From positions 1 to 21,974 of the IMG/VR virus record IMGVR_UViG_3300033571_007200: a DNA stretch of 21,974 nucleotides, one strand, 5' to 3'. The notes under the pieces were generated by a model that ran no database searches, had not been told where the DNA came from, and saw only the letters and a list, made by a program, of their open reading frames with translations. Position numbers and translations under genes: made by a program. This document shows positions 3,063-21,426 of the stretch, one piece after another. Numbering within the stretch: the first letter of the stretch is position 1; each line of letters begins with the position of its first letter. Origin of the DNA: a virus.

Positions 3063-3098
3063 ACCCACCTGCTCCCCCCACTCAGGCAGGTGGGTTTT
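3063..3098 (+). terminator. Intrinsic terminator
   Basis: ACCCACCTGC (3063-3072) pairs perfectly with GCAGGTGGGT (3086-3095), and a TTTT tail follows. It is a diverged copy of the terminator at 499-532, including the flanking CAGAGACCCACCTG and GCTGTC sequences. Confidence 0.85.
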
Positions 3099-3155
3099 CT
3101 GCTGTCTGCCCCCAACGCAAAGCGAAACGCTGGGCTAATAAATCTGCTGGCGAAG

Positions 3156-3184
3156 TTGCTTATTCGGGTATTCCGTAGTATCCT
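3156..3184 (+). promoter_or_regulatory. Promoter of DUF932 gene
   Basis: TTGCTT (3156-3161), a 17-bp spacer and TATCCT (3179-3184). The leader ends with ribosome-binding site GGAAGG (3201-3206), seven bases before ATG 3214. The spacer lacks the conserved R block, so this looks like a different promoter class. Confidence 0.5.
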
Positions 3185-3213
3185 TTCTGATAAATCTAAC
3201 GGAAGGTTTAGAA

Positions 3214-4239: not shown

Positions 4240-4282
4240 CACCCCAAAGTGGGACAATGGTGATGACTACAATGGGGGTCGT

Positions 4283-4681: not shown

Positions 4682-4684
4682 AAA

Positions 4685-4990
4685 GTGACAATTCCCTACA
4701 TTCTGCGCTCTGGTGATGTAGCCCCGTTTCCAGGAACAGGCGAAGAAGCCGATGAAAACCTTTTGACGCACAGGTGGGAGCAAATTCCAGAGGATTTTCA
4801 GCCGTCAATCCCAAAGGCGTGGGCAGAAGCAACTGGAATCACATCTTTTCCCAAGAACACACTCAAATGCACGGTGTGTGGTGCTAAGTGGTTTAGCCAG
4901 CAGAGTTATTATCCGTGTGGCAAAGAGGTTCGTCTGACTGAACGACTTGAACTTCCTCATATGCCAGGAAAGCCAAAGTATTCCTCATAA
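4685..4990 (+). CDS. Hypothetical protein with zinc-ribbon-like Cys pairs
   Basis: GTG 4685 lies three bases after the preceding stop, so translational coupling is likely. The protein has 101 aa. The N-terminal half is Pro/Glu-rich and unlike any family I recognise. The C-terminal half has CTVCGAKW and a single later PCG (Cys-x2-Cys followed by one Cys), which could be an incomplete zinc knuckle or ribbon. It is the last rightward gene before a convergent minus-strand block, and its stop lies five bases from element R4. The function is unknown. Confidence 0.7.
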   Translation: MTIPYILRSGDVAPFPGTGEEADENLLTHRWEQIPEDFQPSIPKAWAEATGITSFPKNTLKCTVCGAKWFSQQSYYPCGKEVRLTERLELPHMPGKPKYSS

Positions 4991-4994
4991 GTTC

Positions 4995-5023
4995 AATGTA
5001 TCGGTAGTTGATACAAAAAACAA
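4995..5023 (-). promoter_or_regulatory. Conserved element R4, in convergent gap
   Basis: Read on the minus strand: TTGTTT (5023-5018), a 17-bp spacer containing ATCAACTACCGA, and TACATT (5000-4995). It fills almost the whole gap between two convergent genes, starting one base after the stop of the zinc-ribbon gene. It therefore points into the 3' end of the plus-strand gene with no evident gene to drive. It may make an antisense RNA, or act as a repressor-binding 'stoperator' like those of mycobacteriophage L5. Confidence 0.55.
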
Positions 5024-5024
5024 C

Positions 5025-5219
5025 TTATCTCGGATATTTTTCTCTGATACTTTCCCAATTATCGCCGAAAAGAACTTCAACTTTTTCGTGGCAGACGGGG
5101 CAACGAGGAACTCGTCCGTCCATAAAGTGCGATGGAACATCACCACATTCACATCTGTAAATTACTTCCAGACCCCACTCACGCTTCAGGCTTTCACGAG
5201 ATGTCTTACTTGCTTCCAC
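5025..5219 (-). CDS. Small zinc-ribbon protein
   Basis: The protein has 64 aa with two CxC/CxxC pairs, CECG and CPVCHEK, separated by about 15 residues. This is a classical rubredoxin-like zinc ribbon that probably binds one zinc ion. GTG 5219 is preferred because GGAAGG lies six bases upstream. A longer frame opens at ATG 5255 (76 aa) but lacks a ribosome-binding site. Either way the gene overlaps the end of the lysin gene (by 14 or 50 bp), indicating co-transcription and translational coupling. Small zinc ribbons of this kind are frequent in phage genomes and have no specific known job. A DNA or protein contact role is possible. Confidence 0.7.
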   Translation of the reverse strand: MEASKTSRESLKREWGLEVIYRCECGDVPSHFMDGRVPRCPVCHEKVEVLFGDNWESIREKYPR

Positions 5220-6189
5220 TGGTTCCCTTCCAATGTCCAATGCCACCATTGTCATAGAGGTACTTCGCCACCATCAAGTTGCATGACGGGGCAGTCAGCG
5301 ATTTGATTAGTTGGCGATAAGGGCGATTACACACCTGAGCAGTCACCGTTTTCCAACCACTGTTGATTTGCAACAAACCAGTGTCATAAGAGCGCACGGC
5401 AGAGCAGTATCTGTAAGTTTCAGCAGGAGAAAGTCGGCAATCACGATGCGACTTGCCCCGCTTGTAATTCCAGCCGATTGCCTTTGGGATACAACGGCTT
5501 TCACGCCACATGATGTAAGAGAACTCTTTGACAGGAAGTCCATATTTCTTCAGCAGACCTTCGTACTGTGGACACGACTTGTCTGTACTTAGCGATTGAG
5601 ACGAAACTCGCCCAGATGAATTGCGAGATTCTTTCCACTCAGCCATTCCTTTTTCCGTGTATCTCGTTCTAGACGGTTTGCGTGTTTTCCAATTGACACA
5701 ACCCTTGCCCCAGTTCTGCATACTTCTCCAACCAACTGCTGGTCGGAAGTACGGCTTGTCATCAATCTTGTCCTGCAGAGTCCCGTAGATATTCTTCGTT
5801 TGGAAACCGAAAAAAGCGGCACGGTTCGCAATGATGATTTGTTCATGCTTAGTTGCTTTTGATGGGCGAGGAGCAAATTGACGACCACCGTAGTTACGCC
5901 ACACCGACTGCGCTATGCCAAGACCACCCGAGTAGTAGCCACCGTCATTCCACTTATGATTGGTCTCACACCAAGAGACTGCTTCCCAAAAGGCAATAGA
6001 ACCGCCCTTTTTTGACCTAAGTTGATACACCAACTCTGGATGCATTCCCGTGAGCGACATTGTCTTCACTTCGGGACTCGTGGGCGCTGTAGTGGTCGGA
6101 GGTGAATCCGTAGCCTCGGCTTTCGTCGTCATTCCTAAAAAGGAAACAATAGATAGAGAGATAGCCAAAAGGCGTACGGGGTGTTTCAA
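5206..6189 (-). CDS. Secreted two-domain peptidoglycan glycosidase (Rpf-like + SLT-like lysin)
   Basis: The protein has 327 aa. Residues 1-26 form a signal peptide (KHPVRLLAISLSIVSFLGM, then an AEA cleavage-like site), followed by a Thr/Pro-rich linker. Domain 1 (about 65-165) resembles the resuscitation-promoting-factor transglycosylase fold: WEAVSWCETNHKW, with E75 as likely catalytic acid, then YYSGGLGIAQSVW. Domain 2 (about 204-320) resembles lysozyme/soluble lytic transglycosylase: MWRESRC with E230, and GLLQINSGW at 271-279. Many cysteines suggest disulfides and extracytoplasmic action. It probably cleaves host cell-wall glycan during lysis. The start is TTG 6189 with AGGAG eight bases upstream. 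Among phage early genes this reverse-strand position is unusual. Confidence 0.88.
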   Translation of the reverse strand: MKHPVRLLAISLSIVSFLGMTTKAEATDSPPTTTAPTSPEVKTMSLTGMHPELVYQLRSKKGGSIAFWEAVSWCETNHKWNDGGYYSGGLGIAQSVWRNYGGRQFAPRPSKATKHEQIIIANRAAFFGFQTKNIYGTLQDKIDDKPYFRPAVGWRSMQNWGKGCVNWKTRKPSRTRYTEKGMAEWKESRNSSGRVSSQSLSTDKSCPQYEGLLKKYGLPVKEFSYIMWRESRCIPKAIGWNYKRGKSHRDCRLSPAETYRYCSAVRSYDTGLLQINSGWKTVTAQVCNRPYRQLIKSLTAPSCNLMVAKYLYDNGGIGHWKGTSGSK

Positions 6190-6310
6190 GAGTTTCTCCT
6201 GTGGTCGGCGGATAGGTCAACAAGCAAATAACATGCGCTTGCCTATGTCGTCGTCAGTCTCTAACTGAACACTTCTATTTTACAACTTTGAGCGACGGTC
6301 ACAACCATCA

Positions 6311-6373
6311 GGAAACCCTTGCTACATAAGGGTTTTAGAAGGCGACCCTCGGAAACCCTTGCTACATAAGGGT
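6311..6373. repeat. Twin 23-bp hairpin repeats
   Basis: Two exact 23-bp copies (6311-6333 and 6351-6373, 40-bp period) each contain the inverted repeat ACCCTTGCTACATAAGGGT, a 6-bp stem with a 7-base loop. In copy 1 the stem extends to AAACCCTT/AAGGGTTT and ends in TTTT, so it could terminate either strand. They lie between the stop of the acidic gene and the lysin start. Tandem terminators or a paired operator are both possible. Confidence 0.7.
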
Positions 6374-6377
6374 CAAA

Positions 6378-6647
6378 TCAGGGGTTCGCTTCCAAAAAAT
6401 CTGTAATGTATTTTTCTGGGTCAATAAGTGCGAAATCAGCAGTAAAAGTGACCCCATTTTCGCTATTTGAGGGCTTGAAACCCATTGAATCCAGAAGATG
6501 CCCCGCGATTTCGGCGAAATCCTCAAGCATTTCCTCTTCTTCTTCCTTGGAGACCTCGTCAATATCAAGGTCAGCCATCTCAAGAAGCATCTTCGCCATG
6601 TGGTCAATAACAACAAGGCGTATTTCAAATTCGTTTTTCTGTGTCAT
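6378..6647 (-). CDS. Small acidic hypothetical protein
   Basis: The protein has 89 aa and is strongly acidic, with a run SKEEEEEMLEDFAEIAGHLL in the middle. It is predicted to be mostly helical, with no cysteines or membrane segment. No family is recognised. A TACAAT -10 lies 9 bp before ATG 6647, with TTGAAC 17 bp further upstream, so it has one of the best promoters in the window and a very short leader without a Shine-Dalgarno sequence. That promoter is superimposed on the rightward ssb promoter. Acidic phage proteins of this size are sometimes DNA mimics or inhibitors, but nothing here proves that. Confidence 0.7.
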   Translation of the reverse strand: MTQKNEFEIRLVVIDHMAKMLLEMADLDIDEVSKEEEEEMLEDFAEIAGHLLDSMGFKPSNSENGVTFTADFALIDPEKYITDFLEANP

Positions 6648-6652
6648 AGGAG

Positions 6653-6681
6653 TTGCATTGTATCCGAACCACTGATAAAGT
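6653..6681 (+). promoter_or_regulatory. Conserved promoter element R5 (ssb)
   Basis: TTGCAT (6653-6658), a 17-bp spacer with ATCCGAACCACTGA, and TAAAGT (6676-6681). It gives a 40-base leader to ssb with GGAGA as ribosome-binding site. Confidence 0.65.
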
Positions 6682-6685
6682 TCAA
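6657..6685 (-). promoter_or_regulatory. Divergent promoter over R5
   Basis: On the minus strand, TTGAAC (6685-6680), a 17-bp spacer and TACAAT (6662-6657) form a near-consensus promoter for the acidic gene at 6647. It overlaps R5 almost completely, so one bound protein in the shared spacer would affect both directions. Confidence 0.65.
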
Positions 6686-6721
6686 CTTAGTCGGAACAAA
6701 CACGACAAATTGGAGATAAAC

Positions 6722-7153
6722 ATGGCAATTACCCCGACATCAATTGTGGGAAACCTCACATCAGACCCCGAGTTGAAGTACACAACCAATCAGAAGGCTC
6801 AGTTGAAGTTTTCTATTGCAGTGAATGACAACTACACAGACGCATCAGGCGAGAAGGTTGAAAAGACTTCTTACTTCAATGTTGTGGCTTGGGGATACCT
6901 CGCTGAGAACTCAGCAAATGTCCTTGAAAAGGGAATGGGCGTAGTAGTGGTCGGGACTCTTGACCAGCGCTCTTGGGAAGACAAAGACAGTGGACAGAAG
7001 CGTTCAACTGTTGAAATCAAGGCAATGGAAATCGGCATTCGCACAGGCTCACTTGAGTCAGTAGAGCGTCGCCGTGCAAACGGTGGAGATTCTTCCTCAA
7101 AGCCAACACCCCCACGCACAAAGCAAACAGTTCCAGCAGACGAACCTTTCTAG
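6722..7153 (+). CDS. ssb: Single-stranded DNA-binding protein
   Basis: The protein has 143 aa. An OB-fold SSB (about 1-112) is shown by IVGNLTSDPELKY, KFSIAVNDNY, TSYFNVVAWGYLAENSANVL, KGMGVVVVGTLDQRSW and RSTVEIKAMEIG. A flexible Ser/Pro-rich tail follows and ends DEPF, a short version of the acidic tip by which SSB recruits replication and repair partners. ATG 6722 is chosen over the upstream frame start at 6653 because it has GGAGA upstream and the normal SSB N-terminus. It coats single-stranded phage DNA during replication. It has its own promoter (R5) and terminator, so it is a monocistronic unit ahead of the primase-helicase operon. Confidence 0.95.
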   Translation: MAITPTSIVGNLTSDPELKYTTNQKAQLKFSIAVNDNYTDASGEKVEKTSYFNVVAWGYLAENSANVLEKGMGVVVVGTLDQRSWEDKDSGQKRSTVEIKAMEIGIRTGSLESVERRRANGGDSSSKPTPPRTKQTVPADEPF

Positions 7154-7186
7154 TTAAATCGCACCCGTGAGTGCGAACTAAGCGAC

Positions 7187-7217
7187 AGCCCCACTTGGAC
7201 GCTCAGGTGGGGCTTTT
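7187..7217 (+). terminator. Intrinsic terminator after ssb
   Basis: AGCCCCACTTG (7187-7197) pairs with CAGGTGGGGCT (7204-7214) with one wobble and a 6-base loop, followed by TTTT. A smaller hairpin TCGCAC/GTGCGA lies at 7159-7176. The T tail runs directly into the next promoter. Confidence 0.88.
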
Positions 7218-7231
7218 GCTATTGTGGGGCA
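7217..7231 (+). promoter_or_regulatory. Extended -10 promoter, leaderless start
   Basis: TGC followed by TATTGT (7220-7225) is an extended -10 element. Six bases separate it from ATG 7232, predicting a leaderless mRNA for the operon that runs to 10976. It overlaps the tail of the ssb terminator. Confidence 0.6.
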
Positions 7232-7642
7232 ATGACGACAGAACATCGCAAGGCACCACGCAGAGATGTCGTAGAGATAAGACGAGTTGGTGGTTGGGGT
7301 TCAGTTAGTTACCACCACATTCTTTCGTGTGGTCACATTGAGAAAAGACCCAGAGCAACAAAAGCCCCGAAACTTGCGTGTGTGTTTTGTTTGCGTGCAA
7401 GCGAAGTAGTAAAGACGATGTCAGCACTCGGTGCTCCAACAAAAGCAGAAGTTCTTGATGATGAAGAGTACGCATCATTTGAAACAAAAGTGCAGATGAT
7501 GAAAGCATCACTCGCATCGCAACTAAATGTTCCGATTGATGCAATTGATGTTGCAATAGTTGATGAGTCAGGTATCCTTCGTGTTCGTTACGCAACAATC
7601 TTTCTCACAGAAAAAGATTTGCGTCGCATCACGGGACTTTAG
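7232..7642 (+). CDS. Hypothetical protein with CGH...CxxC zinc site
   Basis: The protein has 136 aa. The N-terminal part contains SCGHIEKRPR and, about 15 residues on, LACVFCL. Cys/His and Cys/Cys at this spacing make a likely zinc ribbon. The C-terminal half is a mixed alpha/beta region (IDVAIVDESGILRVRYATIFL) without a recognised fold. It is the first gene of the operon, with a leaderless start, and its stop codon overlaps the AGGAGG ribosome-binding site of the WhiB gene, so the two are co-transcribed. A regulatory or DNA-binding role is possible but is not shown. Confidence 0.8.
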   Translation: MTTEHRKAPRRDVVEIRRVGGWGSVSYHHILSCGHIEKRPRATKAPKLACVFCLRASEVVKTMSALGAPTKAEVLDDEEYASFETKVQMMKASLASQLNVPIDAIDVAIVDESGILRVRYATIFLTEKDLRRITGL

Positions 7643-7650
7643 GAGGCAAT

Positions 7651-8013
7651 GTGGAGCAAGGCGATTTCTCACCAGAGAATGGCAACTGCAAGGGGTATCC
7701 AACAGAGTGGTGGTATCCGTTACAAAAGACTGGTAAACGAGAAGAAGTCGTTGAACTCCGAAAAAACACAGCGCAAGCAAAAACGATTTGCGCTACTTGC
7801 CCAGACAAAGTAGAGTGTCTTGAATACTCACTGAAGTGGGAACCGTGGGGTATTTGGGGTGGTAAAGATGAACAAGAGCGAGCACAACTTCGCTGGTCAA
7901 AACAAGTTCATCTTGGTCGTGAAGGTCGCATTGTTTTCAAAGGAATTGGACTGCGTGACGCCAATGGTGGAGAATTCCTAAAGAAAACCGTCTACGACAA
8001 TGACTTCGTCTAA
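7651..8013 (+). CDS. WhiB-family iron-sulfur transcription factor
   Basis: The protein has 120 aa. Four cysteines C13, C47, C50 and C56 (C-x33-C-x2-C-x5-C) are the ligands of the WhiB [4Fe-4S] cluster. The following GIWGG (67-71) is the family turn that contacts the primary sigma factor. Basic residues after it (RWSKQ, GREGR) may bind DNA. WhiB-like proteins are confined to Actinobacteria and their phages. The phage member WhiBTM4 of mycobacteriophage TM4 represses host whiB2, so a role in reprogramming the host is a fair inference. The start is GTG 7651 after AGGAGG. Its end overlaps the primase-helicase start by 14 bp. Confidence 0.93.
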   Translation: MEQGDFSPENGNCKGYPTEWWYPLQKTGKREEVVELRKNTAQAKTICATCPDKVECLEYSLKWEPWGIWGGKDEQERAQLRWSKQVHLGREGRIVFKGIGLRDANGGEFLKKTVYDNDFV

Positions 8014-9715
8014 GCACACAGAAGAGTTCCTATCTCGCCTAAAAGGTGTTACCGAAACAGGTAACGGCTGGGAAGCACGCTGTCCGTGTCGCAATGATGA
8101 TGAGAACCCATCTCTTTCTATCTCTGAAGACGACAGGAATGGGAACATTCTCGTTACTTGCCATCGGGGCTCACCATGTTCTTCAAAAGAGATTTGCGAA
8201 TCAATGGGATTGACACAAGCCGCATTGTTTCCTCCACAAAAACGCACCAAAGAAAAACTTGAACTCGTCAAGACATATGACTATACTGATGAGCAAGGAG
8301 AACTTCTTTTTCAGAAACTTCGTTATGTAGACGGAAGTGGAAAGAAGACATTTCGCCAACGCAAACCCGATGGTCATGGTGGTTGGGAATACTCGCTCGG
8401 TGATACACCAAAGGTTCTTTACAATCTTCCAGCAGTTCGCAAGGCTGTCACAGATGGATACCCGATTTGGGTAGTTGAGGGAGAGAAAGACGCAGACACC
8501 CTCATGAAGATGGGGATTATTGCGACAACAATGCCAGGTGGTGCAGGTAAGTGGTTGCAAATCCACACGAACGCACTCGCAGGTGGAACAGTTGTTGTAG
8601 TCGCAGACAACGATGAACCAGGAATGGCTCACGCAAAAGTTGTCGTAGAAGAACTATCCAAAGCAGGGTGTGATGTATCTGCTTGGCGTACACCGCAGTG
8701 CAAAGATGTAACAGATTTCCTCGCTGTTGATGGAGACCTTGATGACTTGTTGCTGATTGAAGACTACGCCACACCTGCCCCGCAGGTGGCGGAAGAGCAA
8801 CCAACAGAAAGTCCGTTTGACGAAGCGAGGCAGAAACTTGAGCAGTTGCTATTACGCAATGACCTCAGTCCACAGCAGATTGTTACAAAAGCACACGACA
8901 TTGCACTCGCAGTTGGTCGTGAGAAGCCACTTGACTTCGGCAGATTGGTTACATGGCAGGAGTTCGTCAAGGAAAGTACCGATGACTCATACGACTGGGT
9001 TATTGACGGCTTGATTGAACGCACTGAACGAGTAATCGTTGTGGCGGCTGAAGGTGTTGGTAAGACCATGTTGGCTAGACAGATTGCCATTCTCTCAGGA
9101 TGTGGAGTACACCCGTTCACATATCAGCGCATGAAGCAAATCCGTACACTCACAGTGGACCTTGAGAACCCAGAACGCATCATTCGTCGTACTTCACGCA
9201 ACATCTACGAGACTGCTGTAGCACGGGGCTACACGAACTCGCCGACAGCAGAACTTCTGACCAAGCCATCAGGATTTGACTTGATGAAGCCAGAGGATAG
9301 ACAAGCGCTGGAACAGGCGATTGAAGACTCAAAACCCGAACTGCTTGTGATGGGTCCTTTGTATAAAGCATTCGTAGACCCAGGTGGTCGCACGGCAGAA
9401 GCAGTTGCCATTGAAGTTGCCAAGTATCTTGACTATGTACGAGACACATACAAGTGCGCACTGTGGTTAGAACATCACGCTCCATTGGGAGAGAGTATGA
9501 CTAATCGTCAGTTGCGTCCGTTCGGCTCCGCCGTGTGGTCCCGTTGGCCAGAGTTCGGCATCTCGCTCACACCAGACATTTCTGCTGGAGTTGCATACTG
9601 TTACGATGTCAAGCATTTCCGAGGTGCTCGTGACGATAGGCCTTGGCCTACTAGAATTAGGAGAGGGAAACTATTCCCCTTTGAGGTCATTGAGTACGCT
9701 AAGGTAAATAAATGA
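8000..9715 (+). CDS. Bifunctional DNA primase-helicase
   Basis: The protein has 571 aa. The N-terminal zinc-binding part has C28, C30, C54 and C60 in a CHC2-like arrangement. A Toprim domain follows, with the catalytic glutamate in VVEGEKDA (E160) and the DxD pair in VADNDEPG (D203, D205). The C-terminal half is a RecA-like (AAA_25/RepA-type) ATPase with Walker A EGVGKT (351-356), VDLEN (386-390) and a Walker B-like LLVMGPLY (448-455). This combines primer synthesis with helicase loading or unwinding, as in T7 gp4-type and phage RepA-like proteins. ATG 8000 overlaps the WhiB gene, and the stop overlaps the next start as ATGA, indicating coupling within one operon. Confidence 0.9.
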   Translation: MTSSKHTEEFLSRLKGVTETGNGWEARCPCRNDDENPSLSISEDDRNGNILVTCHRGSPCSSKEICESMGLTQAALFPPQKRTKEKLELVKTYDYTDEQGELLFQKLRYVDGSGKKTFRQRKPDGHGGWEYSLGDTPKVLYNLPAVRKAVTDGYPIWVVEGEKDADTLMKMGIIATTMPGGAGKWLQIHTNALAGGTVVVVADNDEPGMAHAKVVVEELSKAGCDVSAWRTPQCKDVTDFLAVDGDLDDLLLIEDYATPAPQVAEEQPTESPFDEARQKLEQLLLRNDLSPQQIVTKAHDIALAVGREKPLDFGRLVTWQEFVKESTDDSYDWVIDGLIERTERVIVVAAEGVGKTMLARQIAILSGCGVHPFTYQRMKQIRTLTVDLENPERIIRRTSRNIYETAVARGYTNSPTAELLTKPSGFDLMKPEDRQALEQAIEDSKPELLVMGPLYKAFVDPGGRTAEAVAIEVAKYLDYVRDTYKCALWLEHHAPLGESMTNRQLRPFGSAVWSRWPEFGISLTPDISAGVAYCYDVKHFRGARDDRPWPTRIRRGKLFPFEVIEYAKVNK

Positions 9716-10793: not shown

Positions 10794-10976
10794 ATGGTAG
10801 CCGTATTCTTCGTGGGAATATTCCTATGGATGTCAGTTATGACTTACTTCCTCTTGAGACTATCTAGCGACAGCAAGGCACACGAACGGTCTTTGTCCGA
10901 CATAACTACCAAGATTCGTGGCTTGAAACTTGCTGTCAAAGTTCTCGGGGCTCGGTTGTATTCGGACCCCGATTAG
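10794..10976 (+). CDS. Small single-pass membrane protein (60 aa)
   Basis: ATG 10794 gives 60 aa; an in-frame GTG at 10785 overlaps the previous gene. Residues about 2-23 (VAVFFVGIFLWMSVMTYFLL) form one membrane helix. A polar, probably coiled helix follows (DSKAHERSLSDITTKIRGLK). The layout resembles small phage membrane proteins, including some class III holin-like or inner-membrane accessory proteins, but no family is identified. It is the last gene of the rightward operon, and its stop overlaps by 4 bp the stop of the convergent minus-strand gene, with no terminator between. Confidence 0.65.
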   Translation: MVAVFFVGIFLWMSVMTYFLLRLSSDSKAHERSLSDITTKIRGLKLAVKVLGARLYSDPD

Positions 10977-11638
10977 TCTCTGGCTCGGCGCGAAGCATTC
11001 TCTGCACTTCGTGTATTTGCAACAAACTGATTGCCCGCCCGACTTCCAATGATTTTCTTACGATTTGTCGCTGCCCTCTGCGATGGCGTAAGTTTGCTCC
11101 AAGCACTAGCAGGCAAGTAGCGGCGAGTGCCACCTTTACGAATCGCTGGTTTACCATCCGATGTAGTCCACTTCTCTCGTGTCCACTTCTTCAGTGAACG
11201 CTGTGTCTTGCGCAAGCCACCTCTGTACCCGCCTCCAGCCTTACGGTACTCCATTGCGAGCAACTGTGCTTTACGAGCGGACCACTGACCTGGTCTGCCA
11301 CCCTTGCTACCAGCCATAATTCTGTTCTTGATGCGCTCACGCAACTCAGGCTTTGTGTAGTTCAGAGACTTGATGTCAAATGACGGGGCGTCATTGATGA
11401 ACGACTTTGTTGACAATTCCACCCAAGCGACTGTTTTGCCACGCACTTCCCTGTCCTGCTTTGGTGCTTCTTCCCAATAGCCACGAGATAGGACCGCATC
11501 AATGTCAACTTCCAACTTGATGTCTGAATCACCCTTGGAGATGTAGCCCATTCGTGTAACAATGCCAGGCACAGGGCTGATGTCATGGGTGTAGAAAAGG
11601 CGGTCATTGCCACGAACTGCTATCAACTCTTCTCTCAT
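10973..11638 (-). CDS. DUF5872-like basic protein, coupled to giant gene
   Basis: The protein has 221 aa and a very basic C-terminal half. Residues about 97-140 contain IMAGSKGGRPGQWSARKAQL and EYRKAGGGY, a block I associate with actinobacterial and phage proteins. Residues about 150-205 (KKWTREKWTT ... RRYLPASAWSKLTPSQRAA) match the DUF5872 pattern seen in viruses. The acidic/beta-rich N-terminus (1-95) is unassigned. Its charge suggests DNA or RNA binding, possibly a virion or packaged protein. ATG 11638 overlaps the TGA of the giant gene (ATGA), so it is translated from the same mRNA. Confidence 0.75.
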   Translation of the reverse strand: MREELIAVRGNDRLFYTHDISPVPGIVTRMGYISKGDSDIKLEVDIDAVLSRGYWEEAPKQDREVRGKTVAWVELSTKSFINDAPSFDIKSLNYTKPELRERIKNRIMAGSKGGRPGQWSARKAQLLAMEYRKAGGGYRGGLRKTQRSLKKWTREKWTTSDGKPAIRKGGTRRYLPASAWSKLTPSQRAATNRKKIIGSRAGNQFVANTRSAENASRRARD

Positions 11639-14600
11639 GCGACCACCTTAACTGGTTCCTGTGACTGCGCCACAACTTCTACTGGCGGTTCTGGGATTGC
11701 CTGCCCACCGTTCCATGTGTCAGCAATCTCGCCGTCTCTCACTGGGACTACCCGTATGCCAACATTTGCGAGCATTCCACTGATTGATTCAAATTCCTCT
11801 TGTGAAATCTTGTTGTTTCGCCAATCATTTATGTCTGGTTCACCGACATTGACAACTACATAGTCAACATCCGAAAGGCTGAGCCCACCGTGTATTTGTG
11901 CTTCTGCGTACATTGTTTCCCCGACCTTACCAGAAGCGTCCTTGCTCGGAACCCCCATAGGCGCAGGGGTGAGACCAGAAGACAGGCTGTCATGGGTTGT
12001 GTATGTAGAACGTGAATGCGAATCTCTTTTAAGAATAAACTGGAGTTCACCATACTGCTTAATGCTTCCAAGCATGTTTCTGTCAATGGTCCCACCAGAT
12101 GTTAGATACCCATAAACGGGGCGCATCTCTGGAGCAGTGTCTGGGTGGTACCCAAACTGTGCAATATCACCAGTTATTCTTCCTTCTGGATGTAGTGCGC
12201 CACGAGAAGTTTTTGTCTCAAACTGCGTCTTAAACCGCCCATCTTCTATCAATTTCGCAAGAAGGTCTTTAGGGAAAGCGACTGCGATATCTGCTTTATC
12301 AAGAGCATCTACTGAGTGTTGAAGCCTCGCTTCGTCTCCTAATGTGCTTTCTTGGCTGTATTGACCACTGATGAAATATGAAATATAAACGGAAAGATGG
12401 TCTGATATTGCTCTTCTAATTCTTGTTTCAGTTTCATCATCAAATCCAAGTTCTTTTAACTCATCTCGCATAATTCTGTTGAGGGGGGTTAAATCAACAA
12501 ACTGAAAGAGAAGTTCATTGCGTATTTTATTTGACGCTTGTATTGCGTCTTTTTCTTCATCAGAATAAGGTGGTGTCGGGTCTCTATCCCAGATTTCCTG
12601 ATAGCGCTTTCTCAATTCCTTCGCTTCCTCAAGGTTTCTCATCTGCTGTTCTAAGACTGCATCATATTCTGCTTGCGTCTTAGGCGGGAGTGTTCCTGGA
12701 CGGAACATGTTCACTGGGCGACCAGTTCTCTTTGCTTCCTCAATGTCGTCAGTAGGAGTAAGTTGCGTACTAGCAAGACCACTACGGCTCTTCTTGTCTG
12801 TCGCTTCTTTTCTCAATTCACTGAGTTCAGCGTCAATCATTGCGAGTGTTTCTCTTTTTGCTTGTTCAACCAAACTGGCTACATCTTCTGGTTTTGCTTC
12901 CAGAAGTCTTTTTTCAAGTTCTGGAGAAAAAGATGTCTGAAACTTACCGTTTTGTACATCTATTCTTCTTTGCATAAGCAGTGCCTCCATAGGCGTAGCA
13001 CCTGCTCTCAAATCTGCTGGTCCGACATCTGGGAAGGCTTTCGGGTTAACCTCAGTTATGTATGTTGCAGTCATTGCTGGGTTAAACATCTCAACCCTGT
13101 CAACAGAGAAGTTTGAGCCAGAATTAAGGTCAGCGACTACTAGGTCAACATCATTATCTGCTTTTAATTTTCTGCGCATTTTGCTTGCTTCAACTAGCGC
13201 TCTAGCGTCAGAATCAAATGGCTCTCCATTATAAGCGCCAACAACAATGCTTCCGTCCCCTCTAACTACAAGACCAACTTGTCTGTCTTTTGGCAAAAAT
13301 GAGTTTGGATTAGTGACTATTGCCTGAACTTCATCAAGCGTAAAAGAGCCAGCGACAAGCGCTTCATTGTAGAAGAGACCATCAGCCCTTGATGGACTCA
13401 TCATTGACTGACCAGAGTCAACGGTGTCGTTCCAAAGCATCTGTGGCATACCACCAACACCCTTGCCGTAACTCAAACCATTTGCATCTCTTCCAAGCAT
13501 TTCTGATGTAATAATTGCTTTTGGATTTCCAGATGCGCTATCGGCATTCGTGAACAATGAGCGTTCAGCAAGTTCTGCCCTAAGAATAATAGAACTCCTG
13601 CCATAACTATTCTCTCTATCAAGAGTCCAAGAATCATCAACTGGTTGACCGATTGTGTAAGGGTGGATAACTTCAACATCGTCACCATAGATTCCCTGTA
13701 ACCCAGACTCTCTTTGTCTGCCAAGTGATTCGTTTTGGATTAAGCCAGAGGCAGGGCGAAGGTCTTTGTATGGGTCTTCGGGGCTTCCACTCTGTATGTT
13801 CGGGATTCCGAAATTCTCTTCAACATTTCTTCTGAGTTGTCTTACATCTGCTCTCGCTACACCACCAGCATCGGCAACGCCCATTCTCTCGTCATAGTCG
13901 TGTTGCGTAAGGTATCTTCCGTTTTCTATTAGACCAAGAGGGTTATTCATCATAACCTTTACTCTTCTGTCCATAGAGTTACCAAAATTATTGCTCGCAT
14001 CAACGACTGCTTGTGCGTACTCTTCTGGTGTTGCGTTATTGATAAAGTCTATGTAATCGTCAATTCTTGCGACTTTTTCTGTATCTCCAGAGGCTATTGC
14101 TAGTTCTCTTTCAATCTTAATTGGCGCAGACCAATCGGAACCAGTGTAAAAGACTGTTCCATCAGACTCTTTAAGGTCTTTAGGATTTATGCCAAACAGT
14201 GTTGAAATAAGTGGTCTATTATTTCTAACGCTATTCACTCCATTTTTAGAGACAGCATCAGACAATGATTGTCTAGCATTACTGTCTAGGTCTTTAATTG
14301 AAGAAACTTGCTCTTTTAATACCGAAAGTTCACGACCAGCATTATCTCTAACTATCTTCTCAGAACCAGTATCTTTTGCTGAATCAAACCACCCAGTAGA
14401 CTCTTTTAGTCTAGCAACTATGCTTTGATTTCTTTCTGATGTTGAAGCAAGACCTCTACGACTTGCTTTGTCTGCCTCAACCACCTCTGCAAGCCAACCC
14501 TGCCATGTGCTCTGTGCCGAACCTGGCTGATGACCCCTGTTTTGATGTGTTTCTACAGACAATGATGCGACTGGAGTGTGCTGTCCGATGATATGTACTT

Positions 14601-17600
14601 CATCGGGACCACCCGTGTCTCGTGTTGCGTCTTCGCCAATGCGTACTCGGAACACATGGATACCAGTTCTTGTCGCCTTGGGTGCGTCGTTCTTCCAAGA
14701 ATCACCCTCTTCGCCGTACCTGCCTCCGTACCCGTTGGCTGTCTGCAGTTTTTCTGCTGGATATGTGCTTGAGTACTGATAGTCGTCCTCAATTAGTTTG
14801 TCGGCGACTTTGTCAAGCCTTGCAAGCGTCTGCTCTGAGCCGTTTCTGCTTCTCTCAAGAATTGTGGCAATGTTTTCCTTCATTTCAGGAGTTAATTCAT
14901 CAATTCCCATCTCATTCAGGTCATCCTTATCAGGGAATGGTCTGTACGCCCTATCGCCGTGATAGTTGGCGTTTCTGTCCTTGCCTCGTGAGATGAGAGA
15001 GCCAATCAATCTCTCAACACCAAATGGATTTTCTGCTGAACTGAGGTTCACCATGCCAGTTTCTTCAAATTCTTGCTGAATCTTTGTCAAATCAGAGAGT
15101 TTTTGTTTTTGGTCGTCTCTGTTTGCGACTAACTGCATAGCAGTCACCTTGTTGATTCTTCTGGTGTTTCCTACCGTTGATGCGCTCGTCTCGTCACCTC
15201 GCGAGCGTGCTGGGTCAAGAACGCCACCCTCAAGAACATCTGCACCCCAATGGACTACATACTCGTACTCACCGTCTCTGAACAACTCACTACGCTCTGG
15301 GCGGGACATGGCAGATACTTCTTCTGCACGCTTCTCTATGCGTGCAAGAACATCTGGGTCATCAAGGATTGCTTCTATCGGTGTCGTGCTAGAGCCTTGC
15401 TTATCAAGGCGTGAGCGAGACGCTTCCATATCGCTTAGTTCAAGACCAAGTTCGTTTATGCGACTCTGTACTGCACCAGAGAAGTTGTCAGGATTGTAGT
15501 TGACCTCAAGCATGTCCTCTCTGGTCATGTTTCTTGGTGGTCTACCTGGAGTTATCACGACCCCATAGTCTTCGCCCTTCCATACGCCCGTCTCGTTCCA
15601 TTCGTCAAGCGCATCCTCAAGGCGTGAGAGATAATCAGACGCATCGGCAATGTTTCTATCAAGAGACTCCGTGTATCTGCTCTTTGTGTCTGAAAAATTG
15701 TTACTACTAGTAGACGCAAGACCAGCGGGTTTTGTTGGTCCAATCATTGTTCTGTCTGCTATGGAATCTTGAATAGCCTTGAGTGCTTCTTCTTCTGTGT
15801 CGTAGTCGCCTAAGTAGTCGCTACCTCTGTGCGCAAGCCAAACACGCTCAGTACCTACATTGTCTAGCGTAATAGTGTGTTCTTCGTTACCAGATACTTT
15901 GAATCTGATGTTATTCAGTGTCATACGGATAGAGAACGACTCTGAAAATGTTTCTGGCGTGTAGTAAATTTTTGAGTCACTTATTGCGCTTAAAACTAGA
16001 TACATACCAACGGCATCTTCGTGACTTATTTTCTGGTTGCTCTTTAGACCGTCTACTAAATCTCTTACCCAAGCGCCATCAATTGTGCGCCCGTAGTATC
16101 CGTCATAAATAGGGTCCTTATCAAATAAATTAGCGTTATCTCTCATCAAGCGAGTAGCGTTTCCAACAATCTCTCTTGATGTGCTGATGTCTTTAATGCC
16201 AGAGCGTGCGCTGGCAAGACCAGTACGAATTCCATCTGTCGTTGTAGCGTACGGAATTGATGGGTCGGGCATCTCGCCAAACTCTTTGACGCCCTTCTCT
16301 CTACGCTTCTCGTCAATCTTTTTGATGAGTCTTTGGTTACGAACCCGCGAGGCTTCTGCGAGCACAGCAAAGCGTGGACCGAGCACTTCGTCGTCTGCGA
16401 ACGCTTCTGCCAACCACGAAGCGTGACCGAATGCGATTGGGTACTTACCCGTAGACATTTCTTCAACATCAACCCAATTGAACTTGCCAGCGTCGTCGCC
16501 AGCCTTTACCACCGATGATTGCTCTTCGCTAAGGTCAAAACGAATACCAGCGATGCGACCACCCTCAACAAAGCGTGGGTCCCAGTCCTTTACATCAACT
16601 TGCCCGAGTATGCGTCTATCCATAGCGTCAGTCGGAGATACATTGACTTCTTCAAGCATCTCACGCTCTGCTGTGTCGTACAGGTCTTCGCCCTCGTCCT
16701 GTAGACCACCTGGTAGCGAAAGCGCACCACGGAAAGGACCGCTCTTGCGCTCAATCGTAAGGATTTCTTTCTTGCCGTCATTGCGTGTGCGTACTACAAC
16801 GACATCACCAGCACGGACCTGACCCGTTTTACCAAATGACCAGTCGTTCGTAGACCATTCAATGTCATCAGCGTCGTATCCCTCGTCATTGAACGCTTCA
16901 AGAGACACCCCGTGGCGGCTTGCTCTATCTTCTAGTGATGAAGCAGATGCAAGACCACCAACTGTGCGTGGTGTGTCTAACTTGTCAAAGTCGTCGTTTT
17001 GCGTACGCAGAGCCCGTGTGATTGCTCCGTATCGCTTTGACTCAAACGCAATGTCGTCGTCAATCTTGTTTCTCTCGTCGTCTGTGGCGGCATCTTCTCT
17101 AGCCTGAACCTTTTCTCTAATCTTTTCAAGAGACTTGGTCATGTCTTGGTTGAGTTTGATACGACGCTTATTGGTTTCTACCTTCTTACGACCGTCAGTA
17201 GCCCGTGAGCCACGCAGTGGGTCAATAACCCGTGACTGCTCTATCTCAATAACATCAACGCCGTTTACATTGGTCTTGTTCTTGACGATGAACTCGCCAG
17301 CGGTAATGCCCTCAATAGGCATGTTCACTTCTCTGCCGTCTGTATCTGGTGTCGGCTTTGTTGTTGGAGAATAGACAATGTTCGTACCTTCACGGAGTTT
17401 TACGATTACATTGCTTCTTTCTCTAATAGCGTCTGCGAGCGTAGTTTGGTCGTCATCCTTTGAGAACCCGAGAACGCTTGCGTAGTCAGGGCTGAAAGAT
17501 GTGAGTGGCATTGACAGTGTTTCGCCAACATTGAGTCGTGCGATAGCGTCGTTTTCCGTAACATTGCTGATTGAACGATAGAGCGGTGCGTCCGTAGCGT

Positions 17601-20600
17601 ATGGGCTATCTGCTATCTCTTTCATCATAGAAAGAGCCATCATTGCTGAACGCTGGATTTCTTCTTTTGTGCTTGAAGACGCTTCGTTGATTGTGCCGTT
17701 CTTGAGATGGTTGTTAGCGATTGACTGCCATCTTCTTGTGTCTGTCTGTGATGACAGAGCGCCGAGACCCATAATCTCTGATGAGATGTAACGCATTCTC
17801 CAGTTTTCTTGCCAATCGTTCCATGCTTCGTATGCTTCATTAAACTCTGGAAGTTCTCCCATGATTGAGAACTTGTACCCGTTGATAGAAACATCGGTCA
17901 TCCCGCCCGACTGTCTTACTGCGTCTGGTCTTCTATGTGCTTCACCAGCCTGTACAAACAGTTCCTTACCCGTATGTACTCTTTCGTTGAGGCTACTAAT
18001 AGAGCGCTCGTTTCTCATAGATACTGAAGCAAGACCGCTTCTCCGTTCCCACGGCTTGTCATAGTCACCAGGAGACGGGTCTGACTTCAATCCAAGAATG
18101 TATGCGTAAATAGACTCTAACTCTGGTGGCAAATAGACTGAACGCTGTCTTGTATCTGGTGTTACGAATAAAGCGCCACCTTCTGCGAACTGCTCTTGAC
18201 GAGTTACTGTTCCGTATCTGACATTGATTAGCGGTGCGAGGTCTTCTACCAAGTACGGGTATCTCGCCTGTATCTCATCTAGCGTCTCTTGCGATGTCTC
18301 TGGTATCCATAGTTCTGGAATAAATGTACGGCTATCGTGCGTACTCATAATCAAATTGAAATCTGCTGGGTCATCGCCATTGGCAGATATCTTCTGTAAC
18401 GCTCTGTCAATTATTTTTGGAGTTTCTGACGATTGGTGAGCGTATGGTATGAAGTTGTACCTATCAAACATGTCCTTGACAAGCAATCCGATATCGTCTG
18501 CTTGAGGATTTCCTGGATAAAGATAATCTCTTCTGTCTCCTCTTTCCCCTGGAACACCCGTGAGTTTGCCCATTACTCTTTCGTAATTAGAGTGCCAGCC
18601 TGTAATTCTTCCAAAGAACGAGTGGAACCATTCATGATAGAGGGTTCCTTCCATAGAGCCATCAACATTCACCAAAAACTCTTCAGCATTGCCATTTTCC
18701 CCAGCAGCGGTTGTGAATCTCTTTCTTTGACCTATTGGCAGTTCTCTTCTTCCGTATTTGGAAGAAGTATTAAGGAGTATCCCGTACATACCCGTGGACC
18801 AACCCATAATCCCTTTGTTGGCAACATCCCGTGACACATCCTGAGGCCTAATGGCCATCAACATGTCAATCTCGTCTGGGTCTACTGAAACGATAGGCAC
18901 TGAGCCAAAGTTGCGAACAATCCAAGCGAATGTTGGCGAAGCATCTAGCGCAGACTGGATAATTCTCCGTGTTCTATCAATTCCTTGTGGAGTGAAATCT
19001 ATTCCTAATTCACCACCACCTTCGGCAACGCTTCTGCCCTGATTGAAGAAGTTGTAGGCGATTACGCCTCGTATTGTTTGTTCAAGTTGTGGCGAAAGGT
19101 TTTTTATGTCAGCACCAAACATCATGTTCATGAGTGTTAGGTTGATGAAGTCTTCCTCACTACGGACAGCAATAGCGTCCGCTATCTCGTCATTTGTTGC
19201 GTCTTTTAGCCAATCTCTACCGCCGAGTGGTGTGCTCTTGACTTCTGGTAGCGACATATCTCTAGGCACATATATTGTTCCGAAAATATCCCGTGGCATA
19301 GACAACGAAGCCAAACCAGCAGTGCGCTCGCTAATGCCACCCGCGATGTCTCTCTGATAAGACTCTGGCTTACCAATGATGTCAAAGATGTCGTCTCTTA
19401 GCGCAGGGCTTACAAGACCCCGTGACGACTCGTCACCAACAAGTATTGCGCTAACGCCTTCAGCAAACGCTTCTGCTGGCATGGTCTGTCCATATTGGCT
19501 AAGTACATGTGGGTAACCCGTCCACTTCTCGGATTTCTTGTTCTTTACCTTTTCAGCAAATCGTCTAGCACCAATAATTCTTTGACTTGCTTTGTCGTTC
19601 CCAACATTGACGCCCAACTTATCTAGAACCTTCCACGGACCAGTGAGTCCTGCGTCATGGTCCCATGTGTCTGAGAACCAGAATGTAGCAAGCGCTCTTA
19701 TGTCTTCGTCTGGATGACTTGAGGCTGCGAGTCTGTTGATGTAGTGACCCCACTCGTGCGCAATCATTGCGTTCTCTGTTGGTGATACGAGGAAGGTATC
19801 GGTACCCTCTAGCATTCCCTCTTCTTCGTACACACCATTAGGTGCGCCACCAGCGAGAATGATTTGATTACGAGAGTCTCTATTGACAATGATTGATGGG
19901 AAGCCCTCTATCATTGAGATTGCGTATGTACCGTCTCCGTCTACCCACTCTGCGCCACGCTTTGTCGCAAGCACTGGAGGGAACCCGTGACGCTCTGCAA
20001 CCTCTCTGAACATTCTGTTTTCTGCTAGCGCCTTAGTGATGACTTGACGCATTTCTGTCACTGCTTCTGGTGAGAAGTCAATGTCATTCATGCCTCTAGG
20101 TATTGCGACCTTGAGCGCCTCTGTGTTTACATCTTCACCATCAATCGCCATCATTCTTTGATGGTCCGCTATGGATAGGAGTGCTTCTTCTGGTGTAGAT
20201 GGAACAATGCGCTCTGCCATCTCTGCTGGTGTAAGACCACGCATGGAGTTACCCGTGGTCGTTCTGCGACCACTGCTAGTTGAGGCGAGACCACCTCTGA
20301 TACCTAAGAATGTTTTCTCTACTAGTTCTACGCCTGCGTCATTGAGCAACTCTCTTGTCTTTTTGTCAGGTGAGAAGTATGCGCTGATTGCTTCTGCCAC
20401 AAACTCGCCAGGCTTTGTTGTGCCATAGTTTGAAGAAACGAAAGGCAGTGAGTCATCTGGTAAATCTATTCTCTCTCCTGAGAACGGTGGTGCTTGATTG
20501 AAGTAATCAAAGAGTCTCTTTATCGTTGGGTGTCTATCTAGGTATTGGGATTGGTATCCAGCATCTGACCACCAATACATATCAAGCAATGTGGCGGCTT

Positions 20601-21426
20601 CTCTTATGTTCGCATCAGGATGAAGCCTGCTTGTGAGTTGATGTAGGTAATGTCCCCACTCATGGGTGAGAGTATCCCTTGCGTCTGTGCTGACGAATAC
20701 TCTCTTCACTCCTTTTATTCTTGGCGCTCCACTCACTCCTGAGAAAAGGTTTGCGATTCGTGCGTTACTCATAGCACTTCTTATTGGCTTAGCCTTCAGT
20801 GAGTCATCATCCATAAGGATTGAGTCACTCAAGAACACGCCTGCGTAATTATTCTTACCTTCAGATATTCCTATGGGTGGTACACCAAACCTGTCCCATG
20901 CCACCCGTAAGGCAGGGCGCTCATCTAGTGTGCGCTCTACGAGGTTGCGCAGTTGCTCAATGCCTTCAGGGTCAAAGGATACCTTCTCTAGGTCTTCCTG
21001 TATGAGAGGGTTATTGTTAGGGAGACCTTGTATCGCCTGCTGTTGTAGGCGCATCTCTAGGAACTGTAGTGGGTTGTCAGGTACTGCGTACTCTGCTACC
21101 TCTCTATTGGTCATGCCTACTGTTGGCGACTTACCATTAGTGAAGTAGGTTTGATAACCCGTGGCACTTGCGAGTCCTTGCCTTACTGTGTCGGCAATGT
21201 TTGATAGGGCTGCTGGTCTCTCGTATGGTGTGTTGTCCTGTACGAGACCGTCACCATCACCGTCCTCTGCGTTCGGGTCAAAGGCGACTGCACCTCTTGC
21301 GAGTTGACCTAGGTTCGCACCTAGTGCTTTGTACTCTATGCGCTCACTGTTCTCTGTCTCTATGCGTTGTGACCGACGACGAATACGACTTGAGTCGTTA
21401 GGGTTGATGTCATAGGAGAAGGGCAT
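11635..21426 (-). CDS. Giant modular polyvalent-like protein (3263 aa)
   Basis: After a basic N-terminus comes a calcium-loop-like motif, DPNAEDGDGDGLVQD (50-64), found in several actinophage structural and maturation proteins. Nine GLAS(T/A)S-like motifs start at residues 84, 379, 704, 1131, 1491, 1736, 1902, 2325 and 2883 and delimit modules. The first three are homologous zinc metallopeptidase-like domains: HEWGH 255-259, HEWGH 557-561 and HEWFH 931-935, each with a downstream YG...ExxAE (E341/E345, E652/E656, E1078/E1082). Next is an ADP-ribosyltransferase-like module (LYRS with R1284; TSFS 1309-1312). A Nudix module follows (box 1574-1596, Gly replaced by Asn). Modules 1736-1902 and 1902-2325 are unassigned. 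The last two are DUF3626-like (around 2550-2720 and 3065-3200). A role as an injected or virion-carried multi-enzyme against host defences is inferred. ATG 21426 has a -10 box 6 bp upstream. Confidence 0.85.
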   Translation of the reverse strand: MPFSYDINPNDSSRIRRRSQRIETENSERIEYKALGANLGQLARGAVAFDPNAEDGDGDGLVQDNTPYERPAALSNIADTVRQGLASATGYQTYFTNGKSPTVGMTNREVAEYAVPDNPLQFLEMRLQQQAIQGLPNNNPLIQEDLEKVSFDPEGIEQLRNLVERTLDERPALRVAWDRFGVPPIGISEGKNNYAGVFLSDSILMDDDSLKAKPIRSAMSNARIANLFSGVSGAPRIKGVKRVFVSTDARDTLTHEWGHYLHQLTSRLHPDANIREAATLLDMYWWSDAGYQSQYLDRHPTIKRLFDYFNQAPPFSGERIDLPDDSLPFVSSNYGTTKPGEFVAEAISAYFSPDKKTRELLNDAGVELVEKTFLGIRGGLASTSSGRRTTTGNSMRGLTPAEMAERIVPSTPEEALLSIADHQRMMAIDGEDVNTEALKVAIPRGMNDIDFSPEAVTEMRQVITKALAENRMFREVAERHGFPPVLATKRGAEWVDGDGTYAISMIEGFPSIIVNRDSRNQIILAGGAPNGVYEEEGMLEGTDTFLVSPTENAMIAHEWGHYINRLAASSHPDEDIRALATFWFSDTWDHDAGLTGPWKVLDKLGVNVGNDKASQRIIGARRFAEKVKNKKSEKWTGYPHVLSQYGQTMPAEAFAEGVSAILVGDESSRGLVSPALRDDIFDIIGKPESYQRDIAGGISERTAGLASLSMPRDIFGTIYVPRDMSLPEVKSTPLGGRDWLKDATNDEIADAIAVRSEEDFINLTLMNMMFGADIKNLSPQLEQTIRGVIAYNFFNQGRSVAEGGGELGIDFTPQGIDRTRRIIQSALDASPTFAWIVRNFGSVPIVSVDPDEIDMLMAIRPQDVSRDVANKGIMGWSTGMYGILLNTSSKYGRRELPIGQRKRFTTAAGENGNAEEFLVNVDGSMEGTLYHEWFHSFFGRITGWHSNYERVMGKLTGVPGERGDRRDYLYPGNPQADDIGLLVKDMFDRYNFIPYAHQSSETPKIIDRALQKISANGDDPADFNLIMSTHDSRTFIPELWIPETSQETLDEIQARYPYLVEDLAPLINVRYGTVTRQEQFAEGGALFVTPDTRQRSVYLPPELESIYAYILGLKSDPSPGDYDKPWERRSGLASVSMRNERSISSLNERVHTGKELFVQAGEAHRRPDAVRQSGGMTDVSINGYKFSIMGELPEFNEAYEAWNDWQENWRMRYISSEIMGLGALSSQTDTRRWQSIANNHLKNGTINEASSSTKEEIQRSAMMALSMMKEIADSPYATDAPLYRSISNVTENDAIARLNVGETLSMPLTSFSPDYASVLGFSKDDDQTTLADAIRERSNVIVKLREGTNIVYSPTTKPTPDTDGREVNMPIEGITAGEFIVKNKTNVNGVDVIEIEQSRVIDPLRGSRATDGRKKVETNKRRIKLNQDMTKSLEKIREKVQAREDAATDDERNKIDDDIAFESKRYGAITRALRTQNDDFDKLDTPRTVGGLASASSLEDRASRHGVSLEAFNDEGYDADDIEWSTNDWSFGKTGQVRAGDVVVVRTRNDGKKEILTIERKSGPFRGALSLPGGLQDEGEDLYDTAEREMLEEVNVSPTDAMDRRILGQVDVKDWDPRFVEGGRIAGIRFDLSEEQSSVVKAGDDAGKFNWVDVEEMSTGKYPIAFGHASWLAEAFADDEVLGPRFAVLAEASRVRNQRLIKKIDEKRREKGVKEFGEMPDPSIPYATTTDGIRTGLASARSGIKDISTSREIVGNATRLMRDNANLFDKDPIYDGYYGRTIDGAWVRDLVDGLKSNQKISHEDAVGMYLVLSAISDSKIYYTPETFSESFSIRMTLNNIRFKVSGNEEHTITLDNVGTERVWLAHRGSDYLGDYDTEEEALKAIQDSIADRTMIGPTKPAGLASTSSNNFSDTKSRYTESLDRNIADASDYLSRLEDALDEWNETGVWKGEDYGVVITPGRPPRNMTREDMLEVNYNPDNFSGAVQSRINELGLELSDMEASRSRLDKQGSSTTPIEAILDDPDVLARIEKRAEEVSAMSRPERSELFRDGEYEYVVHWGADVLEGGVLDPARSRGDETSASTVGNTRRINKVTAMQLVANRDDQKQKLSDLTKIQQEFEETGMVNLSSAENPFGVERLIGSLISRGKDRNANYHGDRAYRPFPDKDDLNEMGIDELTPEMKENIATILERSRNGSEQTLARLDKVADKLIEDDYQYSSTYPAEKLQTANGYGGRYGEEGDSWKNDAPKATRTGIHVFRVRIGEDATRDTGGPDEVHIIGQHTPVASLSVETHQNRGHQPGSAQSTWQGWLAEVVEADKASRRGLASTSERNQSIVARLKESTGWFDSAKDTGSEKIVRDNAGRELSVLKEQVSSIKDLDSNARQSLSDAVSKNGVNSVRNNRPLISTLFGINPKDLKESDGTVFYTGSDWSAPIKIERELAIASGDTEKVARIDDYIDFINNATPEEYAQAVVDASNNFGNSMDRRVKVMMNNPLGLIENGRYLTQHDYDERMGVADAGGVARADVRQLRRNVEENFGIPNIQSGSPEDPYKDLRPASGLIQNESLGRQRESGLQGIYGDDVEVIHPYTIGQPVDDSWTLDRENSYGRSSIILRAELAERSLFTNADSASGNPKAIITSEMLGRDANGLSYGKGVGGMPQMLWNDTVDSGQSMMSPSRADGLFYNEALVAGSFTLDEVQAIVTNPNSFLPKDRQVGLVVRGDGSIVVGAYNGEPFDSDARALVEASKMRRKLKADNDVDLVVADLNSGSNFSVDRVEMFNPAMTATYITEVNPKAFPDVGPADLRAGATPMEALLMQRRIDVQNGKFQTSFSPELEKRLLEAKPEDVASLVEQAKRETLAMIDAELSELRKEATDKKSRSGLASTQLTPTDDIEEAKRTGRPVNMFRPGTLPPKTQAEYDAVLEQQMRNLEEAKELRKRYQEIWDRDPTPPYSDEEKDAIQASNKIRNELLFQFVDLTPLNRIMRDELKELGFDDETETRIRRAISDHLSVYISYFISGQYSQESTLGDEARLQHSVDALDKADIAVAFPKDLLAKLIEDGRFKTQFETKTSRGALHPEGRITGDIAQFGYHPDTAPEMRPVYGYLTSGGTIDRNMLGSIKQYGELQFILKRDSHSRSTYTTHDSLSSGLTPAPMGVPSKDASGKVGETMYAEAQIHGGLSLSDVDYVVVNVGEPDINDWRNNKISQEEFESISGMLANVGIRVVPVRDGEIADTWNGGQAIPEPPVEVVAQSQEPVKVVA

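Follow-up and report, generated by a model that had tools for sequence, protein, structure and literature searches.

Why a single viral protein should repeat one short peptide nine times along its length is the question raised by the IMG/VR virus record IMGVR_UViG_3300033571_007200, analysed here as one stretch of 21,974 bases (the window). The protein, of 3263 amino acids (aa), is encoded on the minus strand by an open reading frame (ORF) running from an ATG start at 21426 down to 11635, and the repeated peptide is GLAS. An initial annotation of this DNA had read the protein as a polyprotein punctuated by the motif, and this reading is partly supported here, as the predicted linker position of the motifs, their presence at the edges of exchanged modules and their concerted, phage-specific changes all favour punctuation. 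We propose that the 3263-aa protein may be one of several polyproteins, in which GLAS would be the local form of a phage-specific recognition peptide placed at the joints between independently folding modules.

GLAS is conserved as a peptide in the 3263-aa protein

The nine GLAS copies compare with 0.12 expected from composition, all GLA and all LAS of the protein fall within them, and GLAS scored highest of all gapped four-residue words in a search given no target (Poisson P ~1e-14 before correction). The start residues originally assigned to the nine copies were all exact (Table 1), and the remark that several are preceded by a basic residue within three positions was found to apply to 8 of 9, the exception being the copy at 1491. 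As had also been stated, it is the peptide and not the DNA that is conserved; the codons vary between copies and no tandem repeats were found at the DNA level, so that DNA-level repeats were rejected as the source of the motif.

Related phages carry their own form of the motif in several proteins

Homologues of the 3263-aa protein fetched from IMG/VR comprised an identical copy (L001), a 78% homologue (L002), a 38% homologue (L004) on a 118-kb contig, record G003, and a distant homologue of 4250 aa (L007) on a 158.7-kb contig, record G005; a 48% homologue is encoded by the 132-kb record G007. Through such homologues and neighbouring genes, nine long related records (G003, G005, G007, G008, G009, G010, G011, G012 and G015) were tied to the window. 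The 78, 48 and 38% homologues retain G[LF][AS]S at most aligned joints, and across the nine records the motif takes the phage-specific forms GLAS, G[LF][AS]S, GMASR, GLRSS, DGFASRG, GLxSST, RLSSG and ISGRM. The proteins that bear it are the S78 prohead-protease fusion, other giants of the head module, homologues of the window protein and the tape measure protein. The G003 form, G[LF][AS]S, is found in the homologous giant, in a 2290-aa protein of which the S78 protease makes up the first 170 residues, in further chains encoded between the portal and capsid genes and in the tape measure, and the joints of G005 are mostly (R/K)LSSG in its giant, S78 fusion, CPPG-type chain and tape measure. The motif is specific neither to the 3263-aa protein nor to the letters GLAS, its presence in the prohead-protease fusion and the tape measure having been missed by the initial annotation.

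In proteins of at least 900 aa, matches to each phage's own motif numbered 22 in G003, 20 in G005, 26 in G007, 16 in G008, 8 in G009, 21 in G010, 18 in G011, 16 in G012 and 20 in G015, with few in the remaining ORFs of each phage, and dissimilar motif types scored near 0 in one another's phages. When the search was widened by scans with capsid and protease alignments, which returned 160 loci, a de novo word search run on each locus gave the types GFAS, GLAS, GMASR, GLRSS, GLSSG, LRSSG, LSSG, ISGRM, STRS and TASM, and no clear motif at several loci. The suggested search for the motif in other giant proteins was thus positive in several proteins of the nine related records and negative in the proteins tested from the cultured relatives Brevibacterium phage Cantare, Gordonia phages Gray and GMA6 and Streptomyces phage Gilgamesh. 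Phage DSL-LC01 also showed no repeated motif, despite a 3289-aa giant. The unannotated gp48 of Gilgamesh (4624 aa; L040, 1979-15853), which lies between the portal and capsid genes and has no repeated motif, offers a useful contrast.

As the core patterns had been picked after inspection of the pooled proteins, a partly independent test was made, in which weight matrices were built without the tape measure proteins and then scored on them. Each phage's own matrix ranked first on its own tape measure in 6 of 9 phages, with z of 3.4-5.3 in 7 of 9; G012 failed this test and G010 was weak. The tape measures of G003, G005, G007-G011 and G015 carry their own motif near residue 575-670, and several carry it also near 21-55. 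On a tree of the S78 domain, which came from a short search and has several weak branches, a minimum of 11 switches of motif class is required, where 9 classes could have arisen with as few as 8; every switch involves many sites, and the GF, GLRS and GM types each need more than one. Judged on these sequence patterns, a common recogniser would fit the concerted change far better than chance or DNA repeats.

The motifs lie in predicted linkers and at the edges of exchanged modules

AlphaFold was run on residues 370-1500 and 1480-2360 with four-row alignments, and the models were used for linker position only. Prediction of structure had been proposed as a check for GLAS copies inside folded cores; the four interior motifs instead fall in the lowest-confidence stretches of the two weak models, with a block predicted local distance difference test (pLDDT) score of 22-25 vs a mean of 47 (P 5e-5). 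The residues flanking 182 copies of the motif are less often hydrophobic (z -11), and on the upstream side they are usually basic, though acidic in G010 and neutral in G012. The models and flanks agree in suggesting that the motifs sit in exposed linkers.

Comparison between phages placed the motifs at the ends of units that come and go. Homology of the window protein to G007 extends over residues 1-2329 and resumes at 2883, the stretch between motifs 8 and 9 being different in G007, and the NUDIX module bounded by motifs 5 and 6 is missing from G003. The giants of G005 and G015 have an RNase_T exonuclease module (E 2.5e-11) that is present also in G011 and G012, there in another gene family, and it is flanked at both ends by whichever motif is resident: RLSSG in G005, LSSG in G015, GLASS/GLASR in G011 and ISGRM in G012. 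Similarly, a C-terminal zincin module comes after GFSSRS in the G003 giant, GLASSS in a different G007 chain and RLSSG in the G005 giant. Of the ends of homology between gene families, 40% lie no more than 40 aa from a motif vs 18% for randomly slid blocks, and over all blocks 25% lie within 25 aa vs 12% by chance, percentages that are indicative, as pairs from related phages are not independent. A common sequence is found at most module joints, as in viral polyproteins with their recognition sequences. In G007 (58649-60496, minus strand) and G009 the CPPG-type chain has its C-terminal part encoded by a gene of its own, and in G003 and G008 this part is fused to the rest.

A conserved leader precedes the first motif in unrelated chains

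Many motif proteins other than the tape measure have a conserved leader, K-x-[LI]-G...R...FDPNAxDGDGDGxVQDGTPFxRPA, which several unrelated chains carry upstream of their first motif and which, too, has phage-specific forms (G011, G005). By analogy with the capsid targeting sequences of T4, the leader may be a targeting element. Within it, a DxDGDG calcium-loop-like element (phrog_7924) lies at window positions 21214-21294 (residues 45-71), and is present in many related chains also.

A phage protease as the predicted reader of the motif

In the scheme that we predict for cleavage, protease, packaging and ejection, a single phage-encoded recogniser, most likely a protease, would read all copies in the giants, the prohead-protease fusion and the tape measure. 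The copies would drift together because one recogniser reads all of them, and as motifs stand at both edges of exchangeable modules, a protease best fits this role. The N-terminal leader would bring the chain into the prohead, cleavage of the chain would follow at or adjoining the motif (between its A and S, say), freeing the leader and the individual modules inside the virion for delivery to the host, the polyproteins consisting of predicted packaged or ejected effectors. The motif copies are probably sites processed by some phage protease. The S78 prohead protease is the first candidate: all nine related records encode it (the window's own record being too short to show it), and in eight it forms the N-terminal end of a chain laced with motifs. 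That it is itself the processing enzyme is put forward tentatively, with less than even weight. Related enzymes cut before Ser, herpesvirus assemblin at A/S and the HK97 protease at K/S.

Several observations weigh against processing of this kind. The major capsid proteins of the nine records have no match to their own phage's motif, though the capsid protein is the standard prohead-protease substrate; the tape measure is a tail protein, in which a prohead-confined protease should need no sites; ISGRM is missing from the S78 protein of G012; and some joints lack a motif (that of the L002 fusion, for example). A proteasome-like N-terminal nucleophile (Ntn) hydrolase and a protein of HExxH type are also encoded by each of the nine phages, overall confidence in the AlphaFold models is low (mean pLDDT 46 and 49), and the choice of core patterns with the pooled proteins in view counts on the same side. 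Co-variation of a capsid junction with the motif, looked for in the capsid proteins among 80 loci, was not convincing. As the consensus was not seen at the capsid junction in the nine records, we do not claim membership among the prohead-protease substrates. A capsid look-alike, QLSSREIKSIG, is present in LSSG-type phages only: the LSSG-type capsids of L041-L120 have QL[ST]SREIK[ST]IG in their N-terminal region where others read GYSxK(S/G)LG, and this is possibly a related site.

Were the sites cut by another protease, namely an embedded HExxH zincin, as in the autoprocessing suggested for polyvalent proteins, or the Ntn hydrolase, acting in the cytoplasm or after ejection, the sites in the tape measure would be accounted for. 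Both candidates occur in all nine phages, the Ntn gene in every long related record (G003: 112009-112629, minus strand; PF00227, E 1e-7) and the HExxH site in the CPPG-type chain (HERAH in G003). However, DSL-LC01 has an Ntn gene (annotated as HslV in that phage) beside its motif-free giant, an HExxH match alone is weak, and the three modules of the window protein with peptidase-like HEWGH/HEWFH sites have no significant Pfam match, and we consider such an enzyme unlikely. We regard as similarly improbable that the motif is a docking or packaging signal binding one phage component (capsid interior, scaffold, portal or tail tube), with the modules tethered or ordered and left uncut. Concerted drift requires only a common binder and no protease, the tape measure, no usual protease substrate, also bears the motif, and bound linear motifs likewise favour disordered linkers; yet a docking signal need not occupy both edges of each exchangeable module, and the chains already have a separate conserved leader resembling a targeting element.

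Explanations without any recogniser fare worse. Modules are shuffled at the motif positions and hydrophilic G/S-rich linkers are common, as would be seen if the motif were merely a favoured inter-domain linker or recombination joint. DNA identity is not kept, however, with codons differing; linkers would not converge on one particular tetra- or pentapeptide across several proteins of a phage, nor would a moved module gain the resident motif at both ends, and this explanation is strongly disfavoured and very improbable. Chance or composition, for which there is low complexity near the joints and nothing else, is refuted by the probability of the word in the window protein and by its repetition, with other letters, in the nine phage records.

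Modules and neighbours of the 3263-aa protein

The modules delimited by the motifs are listed in Table 1. That the motifs fall at the edges of recognisable domains was borne out for the NUDIX and DUF3626 domains, each of which lies within a single inter-motif segment; the zincin-like modules and module 1131-1490 had no significant Pfam match. The first three inter-motif modules are paralogous, with one HEWxH site each. PDB sequence searches with two modules gave no match, and when residues 1-1975 were compared with annotated phages the NUDIX module alone matched.

Table 1. Features along the 3263-aa protein, and the gene downstream of it, with their positions in the window.
Feature	Residues	Window position	Strand	Remarks
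Leader	1-83	21178..21426	(-)	KALGANLGQLAR...FDPNAEDGDGDGLVQDNTPYERPA; phrog_7924; same element before first motif in many other motif proteins
GLAS motif 1	84	21166..21177	(-)	
Zincin-like module	84-378	20293..21177	(-)	HEWGH at 255; no significant Pfam match
GLAS motif 2	379	20281..20292	(-)	Aligns with GFAS of 38% homologue
Zincin-like paralogue	379-703	19318..20292	(-)	HEWGH at 557; E 1e-20 to module 84-378
GLAS motif 3	704	19306..19317	(-)	AlphaFold block pLDDT 25
Zincin-like paralogue	704-1130	18037..19317	(-)	HEWFH at 931; E 0.001 to first two; no Pfam match
GLAS motif 4	1131	18025..18036	(-)	AlphaFold block pLDDT 22
Module	1131-1490	16957..18036	(-)	ADP-ribosyltransferase-like by eye only; no Pfam or PDB match
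GLAS motif 5	1491	16945..16956	(-)	Left boundary of NUDIX module that G003 lacks
NUDIX hydrolase module	1491-1735	16222..16956	(-)	PF00293, E 4.5e-12, residues 1541-1672
GLAS motif 6	1736	16210..16221	(-)	Right boundary of NUDIX module; AlphaFold block pLDDT 25
Module	1736-1901	15724..16221	(-)	No match in whole-protein family scans
GLAS motif 7	1902	15712..15723	(-)	AlphaFold block pLDDT 23
Module	1902-2324	14455..15723	(-)	Relative in G011, between G011's own motifs
GLAS motif 8	2325	14443..14454	(-)	Homology ends here: with G007 at 2329, with L002 at 2323
Module	2325-2882	12781..14454	(-)	Relatives in G003, G005 and G011
GLAS motif 9	2883	12769..12780	(-)	G007 homology resumes exactly at 2883
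DUF3626 module	2883-3263	11638..12780	(-)	PF12294, E 4.8e-10, residues 3058-3149
221-aa gene		10973..11638	(-)	Downstream of giant, 4-nt overlap; homologue fused to giant in L002

In the L002 fusion (746-8248) the homologue of the 221-aa gene is joined in frame to a shortened giant, and the junction lies at the would-be motif 8, without GLAS. Gene neighbours of the 3263-aa ORF include a primase/helicase and a transglycosylase, the latter a transglycosylase-like protein amid the replication genes (5206-6189, minus strand; phrog_29757, E 6e-12); sister motif proteins sit between the portal and major capsid genes.

G003 carries portal, S78 prohead protease (PF04586, E 3e-11), HK97-type capsid and tail sheath genes, which places it in a myovirus group, and its capsid protein shares about 46-48% identity with the counterparts in Gordonia and Brevibacterium phages, making actinobacterial hosts likely. 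The family is probably one of tailed phages infecting actinobacteria, and its viruses are mostly uncultured. The actinophage origin first proposed is accordingly likely by relatives alone (major capsid protein ~47% identical to the Gordonia and Brevibacterium phages), and no host was found, a scan of genome contigs with the capsid alignment giving no relative.

Implications and comparison with known systems

If the joints are processing sites, the exact module boundaries of hundreds of uncharacterised phage effectors could be read from sequence, and the phage-specific code would be a tag listing each phage's predicted processed proteins. Polyprotein processing would be extended to tailed phages, which would also supply natural matched protease-substrate pairs of changing specificity (GLAS, GMASR, GLRSS, LSSG, ISGRM), so that the co-evolution of one protease and dozens of its sites could be put directly to the test. 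The question is raised of why one code should be common to head-module chains and a tail protein.

The polyproteins of eukaryotic RNA viruses are chains of modules with short protease sites at their joints, cut by a virus-encoded protease. The window protein is alike in being a module chain with short putative recognition peptides at the joints, with no homology claimed; it differs in that these are tailed double-stranded DNA (dsDNA) phages, with several separate polyproteins and a cleavage that is predicted only. The strategy is well known in RNA viruses and, as far as we found, is not described for tailed phages, no paper on such a motif in phage polyproteins having been found within open-licence papers.

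Among phage systems, gp245 of SPN3US cleaves numerous head proteins on the C-terminal side of AXE, the next residue often being Ser, which is preferred at P1' (PMC10052503). Together with T4 gp21 and its capsid targeting sequences, gp245 (PMC10052503, PMC7411985) resembles the system predicted here in the use of one protease and a short consensus for many head or ejected proteins, with a leader or propeptide before the site and Ser often at P1'. The substrates of gp245 and gp21, however, are for the most part trimmed of a terminal propeptide, and the major capsid protein is among them, whereas here the capsid has no motif and the sites would dissect chains of up to ~10 modules. In the excerpted text of PMC5512222 and PMC12810830, DdrB and DarA of phage P1 invite comparison with the predicted chains as large internal ejected proteins, defence-related and processed before or during head assembly, and DdrB has a C-terminal metallopeptidase; they differ in receiving one cut per protein, with no series of sites.

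Polyvalent proteins, found in phages and conjugative elements, are very large and multidomain and combine disparate enzyme modules; for them, in the excerpted text, the authors propose domain release by embedded peptidases and draw a comparison with RNA-virus polyproteins (Iyer et al. 2017, PMC5512222). The window protein is like them in size, multidomain build, disparate enzyme modules and an often phage-encoded origin: set against the 2-15 disparate domains of polyvalent proteins, its nine inter-motif segments include NUDIX, DUF3626 and the three HEWxH paralogues, and its phage or mobile-element origin is seen in the IMG/VR virus record and in relatives with portal, S78, capsid and sheath genes. 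A term search of PMC5512222 turned up no recurrent punctuation peptide, and unlike polyvalent proteins as described in that text, the joints here bear a phage-specific peptide common to several proteins and the tape measure, together with a shared leader. The system appears to work like a polyprotein with a protease code, and fits the general polyvalent-protein idea. It is nearly, if not quite, an even prospect that these phages are a tailed dsDNA lineage with a true polyprotein strategy, in which one phage-encoded protease with a fast-drifting cleavage code would process the ejected proteins, whether effector chains packaged in the head or the tape measure, and effector modules, exchanged between phages as cassettes, would take on the resident code.

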